From the NCBI RefSeq assembly GCF_019443325.1, contig NZ_CP080383.1, positions 2,604,001 through 2,668,000 of the forward strand: 64,000 nucleotides of DNA. Reading direction: 5' to 3'. Shown here piece after piece: positions 932 to 61,471 of the stretch. A model generated the notes under the pieces. That model saw only the letters and a program-made list of their open reading frames with translations. It did no database searches and was not told the DNA's origin. Each line of letters starts with the position of its first letter. Positions within the stretch are counted from its first letter, which is position 1. Made by a program: the position numbers and the translations under genes. This DNA comes from Cryobacterium sp. PAMC25264. Its GTDB lineage: Bacteria > Actinomycetota > Actinomycetes > Actinomycetales > Microbacteriaceae.

Positions 932-1020
932 GTCTGAGGCTCGACCGCAAGAAAGGACAAAGGTCGATAAACAGGACGAAATGTCGAATTCTGTCCTTTA
1001 TAGCTCACTTTCTCCTTTTT
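932..1020 (+). repeat. Three-box intergenic element, copy 1
   Basis: First of three related intergenic sequences (others at 34149-34236 and 42274-42363, both minus strand). It has GTCTGAG near its start, AGGAC at 954-958, AGGAC again 19 nt later at 973-977 inside GATAAACAGGACG, and the inverse GTCCT at 993-997, followed by CTCACTTTCTCC. Box 1 and box 3 form the inverted repeat AAAGGACA/TGTCCTTT. The element ends about 66 bp before the start of the downstream gene. It could be a protein-binding site, an RNA leader that folds in two ways, or a REP-like repeat. Confidence 0.65.
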
Positions 1021-4042: not shown

Positions 4043-4076
4043 GGGAAAACTCCTCATACATATAGATGGATGTGTC

Positions 4077-4158
4077 GTGGCCCAGGCGTGCGGCCACTAA
4101 CCGTGTCAGTCGCTCCCCGATGGTGACCCATCTTTCGTGCTACGCCAGTTGCGACTCG
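4077..4158 (-). promoter_or_regulatory. ZTP (pfl) riboswitch upstream of glyA-folD
   Basis: The minus-strand RNA has the consensus parts of the pfl/ZMP-ZTP riboswitch in order. The 5' strand AGUCGC pairs with GCGACU about 40 nt later (P1); ACUGGCG follows; then a short hairpin GAUGG-GUCA-CCAUC leading into the conserved CGGGGAGCGAC; then a 3' hairpin GUGGCC/GGCCAC carrying CGCCUGGG, whose CGCC can form the pseudoknot with GGCG. The glyA Shine-Dalgarno starts about 25 nt after it, so translational or transcriptional control is possible. The family is known to control folate and purine genes, which fits glyA-folD. A possible -10 (TAGTAT, 4163-4168) overlaps the mrpG stop. Confidence 0.88.
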
Positions 4159-4167
4159 GCCATACTA

Positions 4168-18993: not shown

Positions 18994-19059
18994 GGGTCCA
19001 TTGTCGTCTCGGATGCGCGTGCGCACCAGCAAGGAGAGGCTGCCCTTGTGCCTCGCCGC

Positions 19060-19123
19060 TGCACCACCTCTGGGTGACCGCGCCCGCTATAGCGGTCGCA
19101 ATCGCCGACTCGAGGTGCAGTGA
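19060..19123. repeat. Palindromic repeat S, copy 1
   Basis: Outer arms CACCTC and GAGGTG enclose GACCGCGCCCGCTATAGCGG and CGCCGAC. Related copies lie at 54033-54099 and 55261-55327, with a degraded one at 38498-38545. This copy is the most decayed in its inner 3' arm (TCGCAATCGC). It sits upstream of the P1B ATPase. Confidence 0.7.
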
Positions 19124-22550: not shown

Positions 22551-22766
22551 GCTGGGTGATCCCCCGATCAGACAGGCGCGCCACCGGTTGCGATGGCGGC
22601 TCGAGGAACGAGCGGGCTCGGTCCTGGGCGGTTTGTGTGATGTGCTCTGGGTTCAGATTCGCGGCGCGGCCGTGGCGTGTCAAGCGTGTCGGGCGGGTTC
22701 TCGGCCAGTGGTTCGAAGCCTTTGACATGCCCGAAACACGACCGACTCAAACCCCCGCCCACACCC

Positions 22767-22830
22767 CCGCGAACTGTGACTTAAGCCCCGAAAATCCCGC
22801 ATTATTGGGGCTTAGCTCACAGTTCGCGGC
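22767..22830. repeat. Palindromic repeat R, copy 2
   Basis: Arms CGCGAACTGTGACTTAAGCC and GGCTTAGCTCACAGTTCGCG with an AT-rich loop. It ends 18 bp before the cupin start. The rest of the 297-bp gap (22551-22766) shows no gene or recognised RNA. Confidence 0.8.
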
Positions 22831-22847
22831 GGGTGTATCGTGCCTGC

Positions 22848-23300
22848 ATGAATGCGGCCGACGATCACGCCCCGGATGCCCCGCAGAGCCACGCCGCGGA
22901 CGCGCGACAAAGCCCGACCCCGAACCCACCGCGGGGAGAGTCACCCCCGTCCGGCGCGGAACCGGCCGACCCGGTGATCTCCAACCCGGAGCACTACCGG
23001 GTGCTGTTCGAGAACGACCGGGTGCGGGTGCTCGAGTACCGCGACGACCCGGGTACGACGACCACGCCGCACGGGCATCCGGACAGCGTCATGGTCACCC
23101 TGAGCGGCTTTCACCGCCGGCTCGCGAGCGGTGACCGGGTCTTCGACACGGTGCTGGATGCCGGCGAGGCACGTTGGCTGCCCGCTCAGACCCACTCGGG
23201 CGAGAACACCGGCTCAACACCCACCCACGCGATCTTCGTCGAGCTGAAGGGCGACCCCCTCGCCGGCCCCACCGGCGCCCCTCCCCTGGGCCCGTCCTAG
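22848..23300 (+). CDS. Small cupin-fold protein
   Basis: 150 residues. The first ~50 are low complexity (Pro, Ala, Asp). From ISNPEHYRVLFENDRVRVLE on it reads as a single cupin domain with metal ligands in TTTPHGHPDSVMVTLSG (HxH) and a later His in AQTHSGENTGSTPTHAIFVE. Similar small cupins are annotated as cytoplasmic proteins of unknown role. ATG at 22848 (MNAADDHAP). The gene lies precisely between two copies of the R palindrome, the second starting at its stop codon. Confidence 0.8.
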   Translation: MNAADDHAPDAPQSHAADARQSPTPNPPRGESPPSGAEPADPVISNPEHYRVLFENDRVRVLEYRDDPGTTTTPHGHPDSVMVTLSGFHRRLASGDRVFDTVLDAGEARWLPAQTHSGENTGSTPTHAIFVELKGDPLAGPTGAPPLGPS

Positions 23301-23365
23301 CCCGCGAACTGTGAGCAAAGCCCCGAAAAACGGGAGTTTTTGGTGCTTAAGTCACAGTTCGCGGG
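23301..23365. repeat. Palindromic repeat R, copy 3 (terminator-like)
   Basis: Arms CCCGCGAACTGTGA and TCACAGTTCGCGGG, with the inner CAAAGCCCC/GGTGCTTAAG pairing less well. It lies between the convergent cupin and ABC-exporter genes. Confidence 0.8.
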
Positions 23366-23369
23366 AGGG

Positions 23370-30032: not shown

Positions 30033-30437
30033 ATGCCCCTCGTTCGCATCGATCTCGTCGAAGGACGAGACGCCACCCAGATCCAGGCCATCGGAGACGC
30101 CCTGCAGGACACCTTGGTTCAGGTATACGAGCTGCCCGAACGGGATCGGTTCCAGATCGTCACGGAGCACCCCACCGGACGGATGGTCGCCCTCGATGTG
30201 GGCCTCAGCTTCGAGCGCTCCGAACAGCTGGTCATCATCCAGATCTTCACCCAGGCCGGCCGCTCCGACGAGGCGAAGCAAGCCTTCTTCGCTGCCCTCA
30301 CTGCCAACCTCGCGGCGGTCGGCGTAGCCCAAGCCGACGTCGTCATCGGGTTCGTAGAGAACAGCCCGGCCGACTGGTCGTTCGGGTTCGGTCGCGCGCA
30401 GTACCTCACCGGAGAGCTGAAGCGCCCCGGCAGCTGA
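30033..30437 (+). CDS. Tautomerase-superfamily protein (4-OT-like)
   Basis: 134 residues beginning MPLVRIDLVEGRD: the catalytic N-terminal proline (Pro-2 before Met removal) is present. A second half reads VVIIGF-like ADVVIGFVENSPADWSFGFG, typical of the long (about 130-residue) bacterial tautomerase-like proteins. Substrate unknown. ATG at 30033 follows AAGGAGACCGA. The last codons (KRPGS, TGA) lie inside the first unit of a 17-bp tandem repeat, so the C-terminus may have been set by repeat expansion. Confidence 0.88.
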   Translation: MPLVRIDLVEGRDATQIQAIGDALQDTLVQVYELPERDRFQIVTEHPTGRMVALDVGLSFERSEQLVIIQIFTQAGRSDEAKQAFFAALTANLAAVGVAQADVVIGFVENSPADWSFGFGRAQYLTGELKRPGS

Positions 30438-30488
30438 AGCGCCCCGGCAGCTGAAGCGCCCCGGCAGCTGAAGCGCCCCGGCAGCTGA
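30415..30488. repeat. 17-bp tandem repeat, four units
   Basis: AGCTGAAGCGCCCCGGC is repeated exactly four times and followed by AGCTGAG. The tautomerase frame stops at the first TGA of the array (30435-30437). As 17 is not a multiple of 3, each later unit is in a new frame. Confidence 0.92.
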
Positions 30489-30531
30489 GTCCGCCCGGAA
30501 CCGGCGAGTGCCGCCGGTTCCGAACACCGGC

Positions 30532-34070: not shown

Positions 34071-34148
34071 ATCCGAGAGGGAGCCTACCCTGGGCCGGCC
34101 GCAGGTTCGTCGTACCCCGCCGCGCAGTCAGGAACCGCGAACGGTTGT

Positions 34149-34236
34149 GAGGCAAAAGTGACTTTATGAGGATGAAAATTGGGTCTCAGATCCTCTTAAT
34201 CTTCCGAAGTCCTCATAAACCCGCGTCGCTCAGACG
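34149..34236 (-). repeat. Three-box intergenic element, copy 2
   Basis: On the minus strand it begins with GTCTGAGCGACG, which contains the stop codon of the APC permease, followed by TTTATGAGGAC, then 19 nt after that box GATTAAGAGGATC, and the inverse ATCCTCATAAAG, then TCACTTTTGCCTC. Box 1 and box 3 form a perfect 10-bp inverted repeat (TTTATGAGGA/TCCTCATAAA). It points at the DUF6350-purN-purH operon. Confidence 0.75.
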
Positions 34237-41439: not shown

Positions 41440-41604
41440 CGAACGCAGGCCTTCTCGCGCGGGCGTTACTTGAGATTCTCGAATGGGTGACCCTCTCGTC
41501 GGTCGAGGGCTCCCCGTTACGTCACCATCTCGTCGGTCGAGTTTGTCGAGACCCCGCGAGACGACAGGACACTCCGACCAACGTTGCAGGAACGGCCCGC
41601 CCGG

Positions 41605-41836
41605 TTTCGACAAGCTCAACCACCGATCGGGAACGCACCGTAAGACGGCCCACCGGGTTTCGACAAGCTCAACCAACGATCGGGAACGCACCGAAAGACG
41701 GCCCACCCGGCTTCGACAGGCTCAACCACCGATCGGGAACGCACCGAAAGACGGCCCACCCGGTTTCGACACGCTCAACCGACGATCGGGGAACGCACCG
41801 CAGGACCGCCCGACCGGTTTCGAGAGGCTCGGCCGG
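41605..41836. repeat. 53-bp tandem repeat, about 4.4 units
   Basis: TTTCGACAAGCTCAACC recurs at 41605, 41658, 41711, 41764 and (as TTTCGAGAGGCTCGGCC) 41818, each followed by a near-identical spacer (GATCGGGAACGCACCG...GACGGCCCACC). Period 53, then 54 for the last. The 410-bp gap between the DUF1254 gene and the small acidic gene contains this array and two single TCGAG units at 41500-41560; no gene is seen. Confidence 0.9.
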
Positions 41837-41849
41837 TGACCGGGGTAGG

Positions 41850-42068: not shown

Positions 42069-42273
42069 TGCGAGCCTCCTTCGAACACACGGGTGTACAG
42101 CGGGAAACGAAACGGATGCCGGCCACGCCGGACTGCGCGACGTGCCAGTGCGTGACACCGTACCTGCGCCGTCGGTCACCGGCAAGGGTGCGGGCATCCG
42201 ATTCGGCGAATTCTCTGACCCGGGTGACGCCTCCACGGATGGGGCCAGTGCGGCGCGTCCAACCGGGCGACTT

Positions 42274-42363
42274 TAGAGGGAAAAAGTGAGTTGAGGAGGA
42301 TGCGACGGCGCGGAGCGTCCTGTTAATCGGCCGATGTCCTGATAAACGGCCGTCGCTCAGACG
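42274..42363 (-). repeat. Three-box intergenic element, copy 3
   Basis: On the minus strand it starts GTCTGAGCGACGG, containing the stop codon of the FUSC gene, then TTTATCAGGAC, 19 nt later GATTAACAGGACG, and the inverse ATCCTCC, ending CAACTCACTTTTTCCCTC. The stretch CGGCCGATTAACAGGACG is shared at 15 of 18 positions with copy 1. Confidence 0.75.
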
Positions 42364-53900: not shown

Positions 53901-54032
53901 GGTGCGACTCCTGAGGCTTGTGGGCGGTGTAGCCATTCTACCGGAGGCTTTCGGCCGGTTGCCCGGGCCGCGGCCCGGGCGCATCCGCTCGACCGAGGCT
54001 CGGTGCGCCCCCTCTGGCTAGGCGCCGCGTTC

Positions 54033-54099
54033 GGTGCACCTCCTGCCGGCGACCGCGCCCGCTATAGCGGGCGCGAGCGCCGACACGAGGTGCAGTGAC
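54033..54099. repeat. Palindromic repeat S, copy 2
   Basis: The best copy: outer TGCACCTC/GAGGTGCA, middle GGCGA/CGCC, inner perfect palindrome CGCGCCCGCTATAGCGGGCG plus CG. It lies 111 bp before the AbiEi-like gene. The rest of 53901-54209 shows no other feature. Confidence 0.8.
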
Positions 54100-55260: not shown

Positions 55261-55327
55261 CACTGCACCTCATACGGGCGACAGCGCCCGCTGTAGCGGG
55301 CGCGGTCGCCGACAGGAGGTGCGGTGA
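55261..55327. repeat. Palindromic repeat S, copy 3
   Basis: TGCACCTCATACGGGCGACA, AGCGCCCGCTGTAGCGGGCG, GTCGCCGAC, GGAGGTGCGG. A half copy of the 5' end (CTGCGCCTCATACGGGTACC) precedes it at 55241. It lies between the AbiEi-like gene and the glpD stop. Confidence 0.78.
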
Positions 55328-58296: not shown

Positions 58297-58360
58297 ACTC
58301 ACCCGCCCAGTTTAGTCGCAGCCCCCACTCAGCCAGGCCATCGACCCTCCCCCACACCTC

Positions 58361-58423
58361 CCGCGAACCGTGAGAAAAGCCCCGAAAACTCGTGGGTTTC
58401 GGGGCTTAGCTCACGGTTCGCGG
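58361..58423. repeat. Palindromic repeat R, copy 4 (guaB terminator-like)
   Basis: Arms CGCGAACCGTGA and TCACGGTTCGCG: relative to the other three copies the T-A pair has become C-G on both sides, a compensatory change. It begins 4 bp after the guaB stop. Confidence 0.82.
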
Positions 58424-58427
58424 ATGG

Positions 58428-61471
<3,044 letters not shown>

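Follow-up and report, generated by a model that had tools for sequence, protein, structure and literature searches.

A dispersed four-box palindromic repeat of Microbacteriaceae located mostly behind genes

The 64,000-nt stretch of Cryobacterium sp. PAMC25264 DNA analysed here (the window) contains three copies of a repeat that, in our judgement, probably represents a dispersed palindromic family of Microbacteriaceae with the habit of REP and REPIN sequences and a build of its own, one that may have a two-sided role at gene ends and would be spread by an enzyme other than a RAYT. The element is a palindrome of about 87 nt with the architecture AGGA-N15-AGGA-loop-TCCT-N15-TCCT. The observation from which the analysis started is confirmed, and the family is larger than first noted. 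Because it occurs in several genera of high-GC Gram-positive bacteria, with no RAYT-type domain found in the genus tested and with boxes that persist as the stems drift, the repeat is a natural system for asking whether such sequences are passengers or have a function at gene ends.

Three copies in the window

The original prediction described a three-box non-coding element in three intergenic sites, and direct reading of the sequence found all three copies in place with the order and spacing described: box 1 and box 2 are 19 nt apart in each copy, and the inverse box follows box 2 after 20, 21 and 20 nt in copies 1 to 3. The TCACTTTYnCC tail that was thought to close the element occurs in every copy, and is actually a fourth box with its spacer. 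The leading GTCTGAG had to be discarded, as in copies 2 and 3 it belongs to the upstream gene, where it includes the final Val codon and the stop. The features are as follows.

943–1026, + strand: copy 1, four-box palindrome in a divergent gap; 62.8 bits, E 9.6e-19 (E 1.2e-9 on the opposite strand)
954–957, + strand: copy 1, box 1, AGGA, read from the sequence
973–976, + strand: copy 1, box 2, AGGA, read from the sequence
994–997, + strand: copy 1, box 3, TCCT (inverse), read from the sequence
1013–1016, + strand: copy 1, box 4, TCCT (inverse), overlooked in the original prediction; read from the sequence and from the 19-nt phasing in the family consensus
34140–34224, − strand: copy 2; 54 bits, E 5.1e-16
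34210–34213, − strand: copy 2, box 1, read from the sequence
34191–34194, − strand: copy 2, box 2, read from the sequence
34169–34172, − strand: copy 2, box 3, read from the sequence
34150–34153, − strand: copy 2, box 4 (GCCT), read from the sequence
42270–42352, − strand: copy 3; 61.3 bits, E 2.7e-18
42337–42340, − strand: copy 3, box 1, read from the sequence
42318–42321, − strand: copy 3, box 2, read from the sequence
42297–42300, − strand: copy 3, box 3, read from the sequence
42278–42281, − strand: copy 3, box 4 (TCCC), read from the sequence

According to Pfam, copy 1 lies between a gene for an aminoacyl-tRNA editing domain (− strand) and a hexapeptide-repeat, gamma-CA-like gene (+ strand). 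Copy 2 lies some 10 bp past the stop codon of an amino acid permease gene and precedes a DUF6350 gene, which had been taken for perM. Copy 3 closely follows the stop codon of a FUSC-like gene and is located ahead of a small acidic ORF that has no Pfam match. In the R2 scan all three copies were also matched on the opposite strand (E 1.2e-9 at copy 1, 1.4e-6 and 2.3e-4 at the other two), and the next-best match in an unfiltered scan of the whole window had an E-value of 0.65. R2 is a sequence-only model built from 53 copies, among them two of the window copies (1 and 2) and an ortholog of copy 3, so the R2 scores in the window are partly high by construction; independent evidence for the family comes from the other 30 places in the genome and from the relatives.

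A family built on four phased boxes

We examined column frequencies in 102 copies, 33 from the genome of origin and 69 from six relatives (G007, G004, G031, G002, G030 and G011, where the copies are those among the matches listed and the counts are therefore at-least values). These frequencies reveal a single symmetry axis and four boxes: AGGA, a second AGGA 19 nt further on, TCCT, and a second TCCT after another 19 nt. Given that the fourth box follows the third at this distance, the whole element is palindromic. In the cross-genus alignment its arms reach about 31 pairs around a loop of about 13 nt, with the motif CGTC inside the stem. At least three of the four box letters are kept in 158, 160, 159 and 158 of 161 copies for boxes 1 to 4, counts that partly reflect the search, as the models that found the copies value the boxes. 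Extra 19-nt units occur in 12 of the 161 copies on each side, compared with 9–11 on the left and 2–4 on the right in controls; five of the right-hand ones are copies from G030. The base preceding AGGA, which the original prediction had seen to agree between boxes 1 and 2 of two copies, is held in common within genomes by all six pairs of boxes (z 1.8 to 3.1).

Distribution across Cryobacterium and the family

A pattern written from the first consensus occurs at one place in the genome besides the three window copies, and a looser pattern at eight places in all. A sequence-only model built from nine copies (R1) returned 57 matches in the same genome, which fall at only 33 separate places because many places were matched on both strands. 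Matches to R1 were present in eight of 60 relatives, comprising seven of 37 genomes of the same genus and one weak case outside it (E 0.0043), and a pattern scan of named genomes yielded 13 stretches, all in Cryobacterium records. The genus is fixed by a stretch of genome G060 that matches a C. adonitolivorans contig without a difference over 2348 bases. The DUF6350 protein, present in all 57 Cryobacterium genomes, was used to define a clade of 12 genomes at 81% identity or more against the rest (best other full-length protein 66%, partial ones up to 71%). R2 matched 12 of 12 tested genomes in this clade and none of eight outside, and the 30 same-genus genomes without an R1 match all fall in the second DUF6350 group; thus, the repeat marks a clade.

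Related forms extend beyond the genus, as the original prediction had suggested looking for: at E ≤0.01, R2 matched 25 of 299 Microbacteriaceae genomes in 13 of 85 genera including Cryobacterium, and 18 of the 25 at E ≤0.001, although a few of the weaker matches at the looser threshold may be chance, and abundant families are undercounted, since 14 candidates were scored per genome. Viral contigs gave no match to either of two patterns, and plasmid and phage records gave none to one intact copy.

Copies lie behind gene ends

With genes called by a simple gene finder, eight of the 102 copies lie inside a called ORF. The context of 87 copies (excluding those of G030 and those inside a called ORF) was convergent in 31 cases, tandem in 48 and divergent in five, with three at a locus edge. 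Among copies with a 3'-end neighbour, 58 of 79 were within 50 bp of the gene end, versus 13 of 53 for 5' ends, and the median distance was 25 bp to the nearest gene end and 96 bp to the nearest gene start. The gaps of at least 90 bp in the window comprise four convergent, 14 tandem and eight divergent ones, and the divergent share of the copies is below that of these gaps (5/84 versus 8/26, Fisher p 0.002). Window copy 1 is among the few divergent cases, and the gene starts downstream of the three window copies, to which the original prediction had drawn attention, are atypical for the family. Clustering of the neighbouring genes, as unannotated groups, identified no recurring gene family beside the copies: among the 25 largest clusters listed, genes group mainly by orthology, and the largest has 15 members from nine genomes with at most two per genome.

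Covariation supports a hairpin across genera

We analysed base pairing in a cross-genus set selected by a model without structure (68 copies found, four dropped for poor boxes, 64 left and 54 after removal of near-duplicates). In these 54 copies the boxes are kept, and the words between them differ and yet tend to be complementary. Paired cells amount to 76.9%, compared with 65.7 ± 0.8% in shuffles, and sliding the alignment by one to three columns brings pairing down to 42.5% or less. Cells with two-sided change number 261 against 142 ± 9, with a covariation score of 0.327 (0.153 ± 0.011 in shuffles); the number of pairs with two-sided change was not above shuffles (22 of 31 versus 20.9). The result within Cryobacterium is weaker but positive. 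In this set (102 copies, 70 after near-duplicates, of which the first 53 on the list were used and the 17 weakest left out), 65.7% of cells are paired versus 62.5%, the covariation score is 0.143 versus 0.106 ± 0.007, and two-sided pairs show no excess (17 versus 17.1 shuffled). This weakness is partly explained by several spacer pairs that are mostly non-complementary there. As judged from sequence comparison, a putative hairpin is supported by covariation across genera.

For three intact copies from relatives the folding energy lies between −50 and −63 kcal/mol (z from −8.0 to −10.7); averaged over 70 Cryobacterium copies, the folding z is −2.95 on one strand and −3.01 on the other. The window copies are worn, with z of −0.25 to −1.6 on either strand, and their poor folding means that not every site retains a strong hairpin. 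Neither strand appears favoured as RNA, since G-U and A-C mismatches are equally rare (89 and 80; nulls 102 and 100) and G-U shows no excess. In 68 folded copies box 2 pairs with box 3 in 51, box 1 with box 4 in 44, box 1 with box 3 in six and box 2 with box 4 in two. The mutually exclusive hairpins of the original prediction are thus borne out weakly: pairing of box 3 with either box 1 or box 2 exceeds shuffles, and the first of these forms in only six of the 68 folds. A simple terminator scan of the window copies identified no site at copies 1 and 3 and, at copy 2, a stem of 5 pairs on the opposite strand, and a promoter scan at the same copies gave nothing useful.

Boxes change less than flanks at orthologous loci, and the words between them more

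Orthologous places were found by their flanks, giving 41 pairs at 19 loci in five genomes (G000, G004, G007, G011 and G031). Using one pair per locus, the boxes changed at 19 of 303 positions (6.3%) and the flanks at 253 of 1567 (16.1%, p 2e-6), with 1/76 changes in box 2 and 8/75 in box 4. The N6 words between the boxes changed faster than the flanks (120/443, 27.1%, p 5e-7); the CTCACT motif (13/114) and the loop (58/313) did not differ from them over the same 19 loci (p 0.23 and 0.32). Part of the slow change in the boxes may reflect detection bias, a concern that is lessened, though not removed, by the finding that no point-decayed remnant was seen. With one pair per locus, double changes that preserve a base pair did not exceed chance (2 versus 1.00, P 0.25); over all ortholog pairs they numbered 5 versus 1.82 (P 0.03).

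Occupancy differs between close species. Comparison with G004 by flanks allowed 13 of the 33 places in the genome of origin to be judged, of which eight are full, one is half and four are empty, and a model scan of the corresponding G004 stretches found no further copy at the four empty places. The site of window copy 2 is full in three of the 12 clade genomes, half in one and absent in eight; the ortholog of copy 1 is kept in G007 and absent from the G004 site, and that of copy 3 is present in G004. At some sites (3175176, 4010312 and 2397782) close species carry quite different copies. Filled and empty sites compared by eye showed neither a target duplication nor a clean fresh insertion, the intergenic DNA being too diverged for a clean boundary.

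Inside genomes, the likeness of N6 words drops with distance along the array, from z 4.3, 3.5 and 3.3 for units 2–3, 1–2 and 3–4 to z 3.2, 1.9 and 0.1 for units 2–4, 1–3 and 1–4. Because these words are most alike between array neighbours and the base before AGGA is common to all box pairs, we infer that sequence may be copied between the units of one element, a reading for which the pair-preserving double changes at orthologous loci are too scarce to serve as proof.

Relation to known repeats and the search for a mover

Among the three readings offered at the outset, a REP-like repeat is the best supported, the copies being dispersed, palindromic, mostly intergenic and beside 3' ends. REPINs are described as short palindromes arranged as inverted doublets with the capacity to form a hairpin, located in extragenic space and present in many copies per genome (PMC3116915), and REPs as located behind gene 3' ends, those with a GTAG tag being tied to RAYT enzymes (PMC3733652). 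The four-box element is likewise a hairpin-forming inverted doublet dispersed in extragenic space in many copies, and shares with these repeats the short palindrome and the 3'-end position as those sources describe them. It differs in having four boxes at a 19-nt phase and no GTAG tag, no unpaired GTAG end being visible in the column frequencies of the 102 copies, and in the lack of the IS200/RAYT-type domain Y1_Tnp (PF01797), which was found in none of 57 Cryobacterium genomes by a search whose positive control detected it in five of 14 known genomes.

The comparison with CGTC REPs is similar. These repeats, which include dRS3 and RPE-4/6, are reported as palindromic, placed at 3' ends and without a known dedicated transposase, all of which holds for the four-box element; their CGTC is an unpaired end tag on stems of 8–9 bp with loops of 4–5 nt (PMC3733652), whereas the four-box element, with CGTC inside the stem, arms of about 31 pairs and a loop of about 13 nt, does not match that build. 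According to the same source, the classified palindromic extragenic repeats are mainly from Proteobacteria, and its main text makes no mention of Actinobacteria (PMC3733652). A table from RepRanger gives REP counts for three Actinomycetota species, so that palindromic repeats in the phylum are not new as such; the main text of that paper mentions neither Microbacteriaceae nor Cryobacterium, and RepRanger REPs, which are also repetitive extragenic palindromes, may or may not include the four-box build (PMC12306157).

With MITEs that have terminal inverted repeats the element shares this trait, in the form of two mirror-image arms around a short middle, but no target duplication was seen at the sites compared by eye, and no parent transposon among the neighbouring genes or the half-sites of one genome (G226). 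At the window elements no Rfam family reached the gathering score, and 14 loci gave only noise, such as miRNA hairpins, at lax E-values. Plasmid iterons and multi-site operators resemble the element in having head-to-tail sites near 19–22 bp; by contrast, the four-box element is dispersed over the chromosome behind genes and is mirrored around its loop. By the features tested, the repeat is REP-like in behaviour but outside the described REP families, and no published description of it was recognised in the literature searched, a statement that holds for that search alone.

Because no IS200/RAYT-type domain was found in the Cryobacterium genomes searched, the repeat would be spread by an enzyme of another type than the known RAYT. 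An autonomous partner was sought among neighbouring genes, where no family recurs, and as facing half-sites spaced by the length of a gene in a genome from a different genus, G226, where there are none: of the 33 matches to a half-site, 20 fall into ten pairs with a spacing of exactly 51 bp, and no two of the remaining 13 are in facing orientation within 5 kb. IS21 was considered as a mover without result. Weak matches to PF00308, which may be IstB-like, occur at nine further places in G000 and one in G007, but G004, G031 and G030 carry the repeat and are matched at dnaA only. A comparison of gene content between the 12 clade genomes and the rest of the genus offers a route to the missing mover or reader.

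Possible roles and alternative explanations

Since copies lie mostly behind stops, treat both strands alike and keep their boxes, the most likely role, which we put forward tentatively, is that of a two-sided gene-end element through which each copy would serve the genes on both sides. A copy might act through a hairpin in the transcript of either flanking gene; alternatively, a protein sitting on the AGGA boxes could stop or insulate transcription. The covariation between genera would lean towards the hairpin, and the window copies, with a poor hairpin and boxes kept, slightly towards the protein.

A more specific version is conceivable and slightly less likely. Here the four AGGA boxes at their 19-nt phase would be read in place by a candidate protein, defining a class of gene-end palindromes in several Microbacteriaceae genera whose boxes are selected and whose stem words outpace the flanks and are copied between units: a REPIN-like element without a RAYT, and with a reader and a mover of its own.

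We consider it unlikely that the repeat is a purely selfish MITE or REPIN moved by some transposase, with no use to the host and gene ends serving as tolerated insertion sites. Its dispersed, non-coding nature and the differences in occupancy between close species (of 13 sites judged in G004, eight full, one half and four empty) would fit such an element, as would the 3'-end bias described for REPs elsewhere (PMC3733652). However, since the species diverged the boxes have changed at roughly 0.4 times the rate of the flanks, which would not be expected of dead copies unless this is detection bias, and the half-sites of G226 reveal no parent element.

Just as unlikely, in our view, is a four-site operator, with two head-to-tail and two inverted AGGA sites for a DNA-binding protein and a palindrome that arose as a by-product of unit copying. 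On sequence grounds such an operator would account for the slowly changing boxes, the equal treatment of both strands and a likeness of N6 words that falls with array distance, as local copying would give. It would leave unexplained why the words between boxes are complementary across genera, which a reader of AGGA alone does not need; moreover, a spacing of 19 bp does not correspond to complete turns of the helix, and the copies are located behind gene ends, not at promoters.

The suggestion of a cis-regulatory RNA, an attenuator that controls downstream genes by mutually exclusive hairpins, is highly improbable. The alternative pairings of box 3 with box 1 or box 2, both above shuffles, speak for it, but no neighbour family recurs, 31 of 84 copies stand between convergent genes, there is no strand preference, no Rfam family was found, and the fold of box 1 with box 3 forms in six of 68 copies. 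A riboswitch of downstream genes was rejected likewise, as the neighbours vary and have no fixed direction. The original prediction had held that many copies at random sites, with neither covariation nor a downstream-gene bias, would indicate a simple repeat; we found many copies and no such bias, together with covariation.

Least probable of all is that the element is the 5' end of multi-copy DUF222 gene repeats: five of the eight G030 copies among the matches listed precede DUF222 genes in repeats of about 2 kb that are 88–94% alike, but the nearest DUF222 match in the genome of origin lies 4.8 kb from a copy and the DUF222 neighbour cluster consists of five G030 genes only, so this origin was rejected and the palindrome was more likely carried along with the G030 repeats.

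Other repeats and elements

The five G030 repeats of about 2 kb (L048–L052) carry, upstream of their DUF222 genes, the four-box palindrome and an extra 19-nt unit. Copies of the four-box element are more numerous on the left replication arm (27 of 33 in G000 and, among the matches listed, 25 of 36 in G007 and 10 of 11 in G004), counts that include sites shared between species. Two genomes outside the clade (L211 and L213) have a long palindrome of another kind, GTCGAATTCGACGGAGAT..., ahead of the DUF6350 gene, in the same gap that contains a four-box element in some members of the clade.

Two further palindromic families were seen in the window. One has four copies (1608–1695, 22747–22834, 23282–23369 and 58341–58428) of the form GCGAACTGTGA...AAGCCCC-loop-GGGGCTTAGCTCACAGTTCGC. 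The other has three (19057–19123, 54032–54098 and 55261–55327), whose outer arms resemble GTGCACC...GAGGTGCAGTGA and which have an inner palindrome similar to GCGCCCGCTATAGCGGGCGC. The window also contains a ZMP/ZTP riboswitch at 4073–4162 on the − strand (57.5 bits in Rfam) and a 17-bp tandem repeat, AGCTGAAGCGCCCCGGC, of about five units at 30415–30499. A 53-bp tandem repeat with TTCGACAAGCTCAACC is present in five copies at 41576–41844, and repeats resembling it precede the DUF222 gene of L041 and lie close to the L004 copy in the genome of origin.
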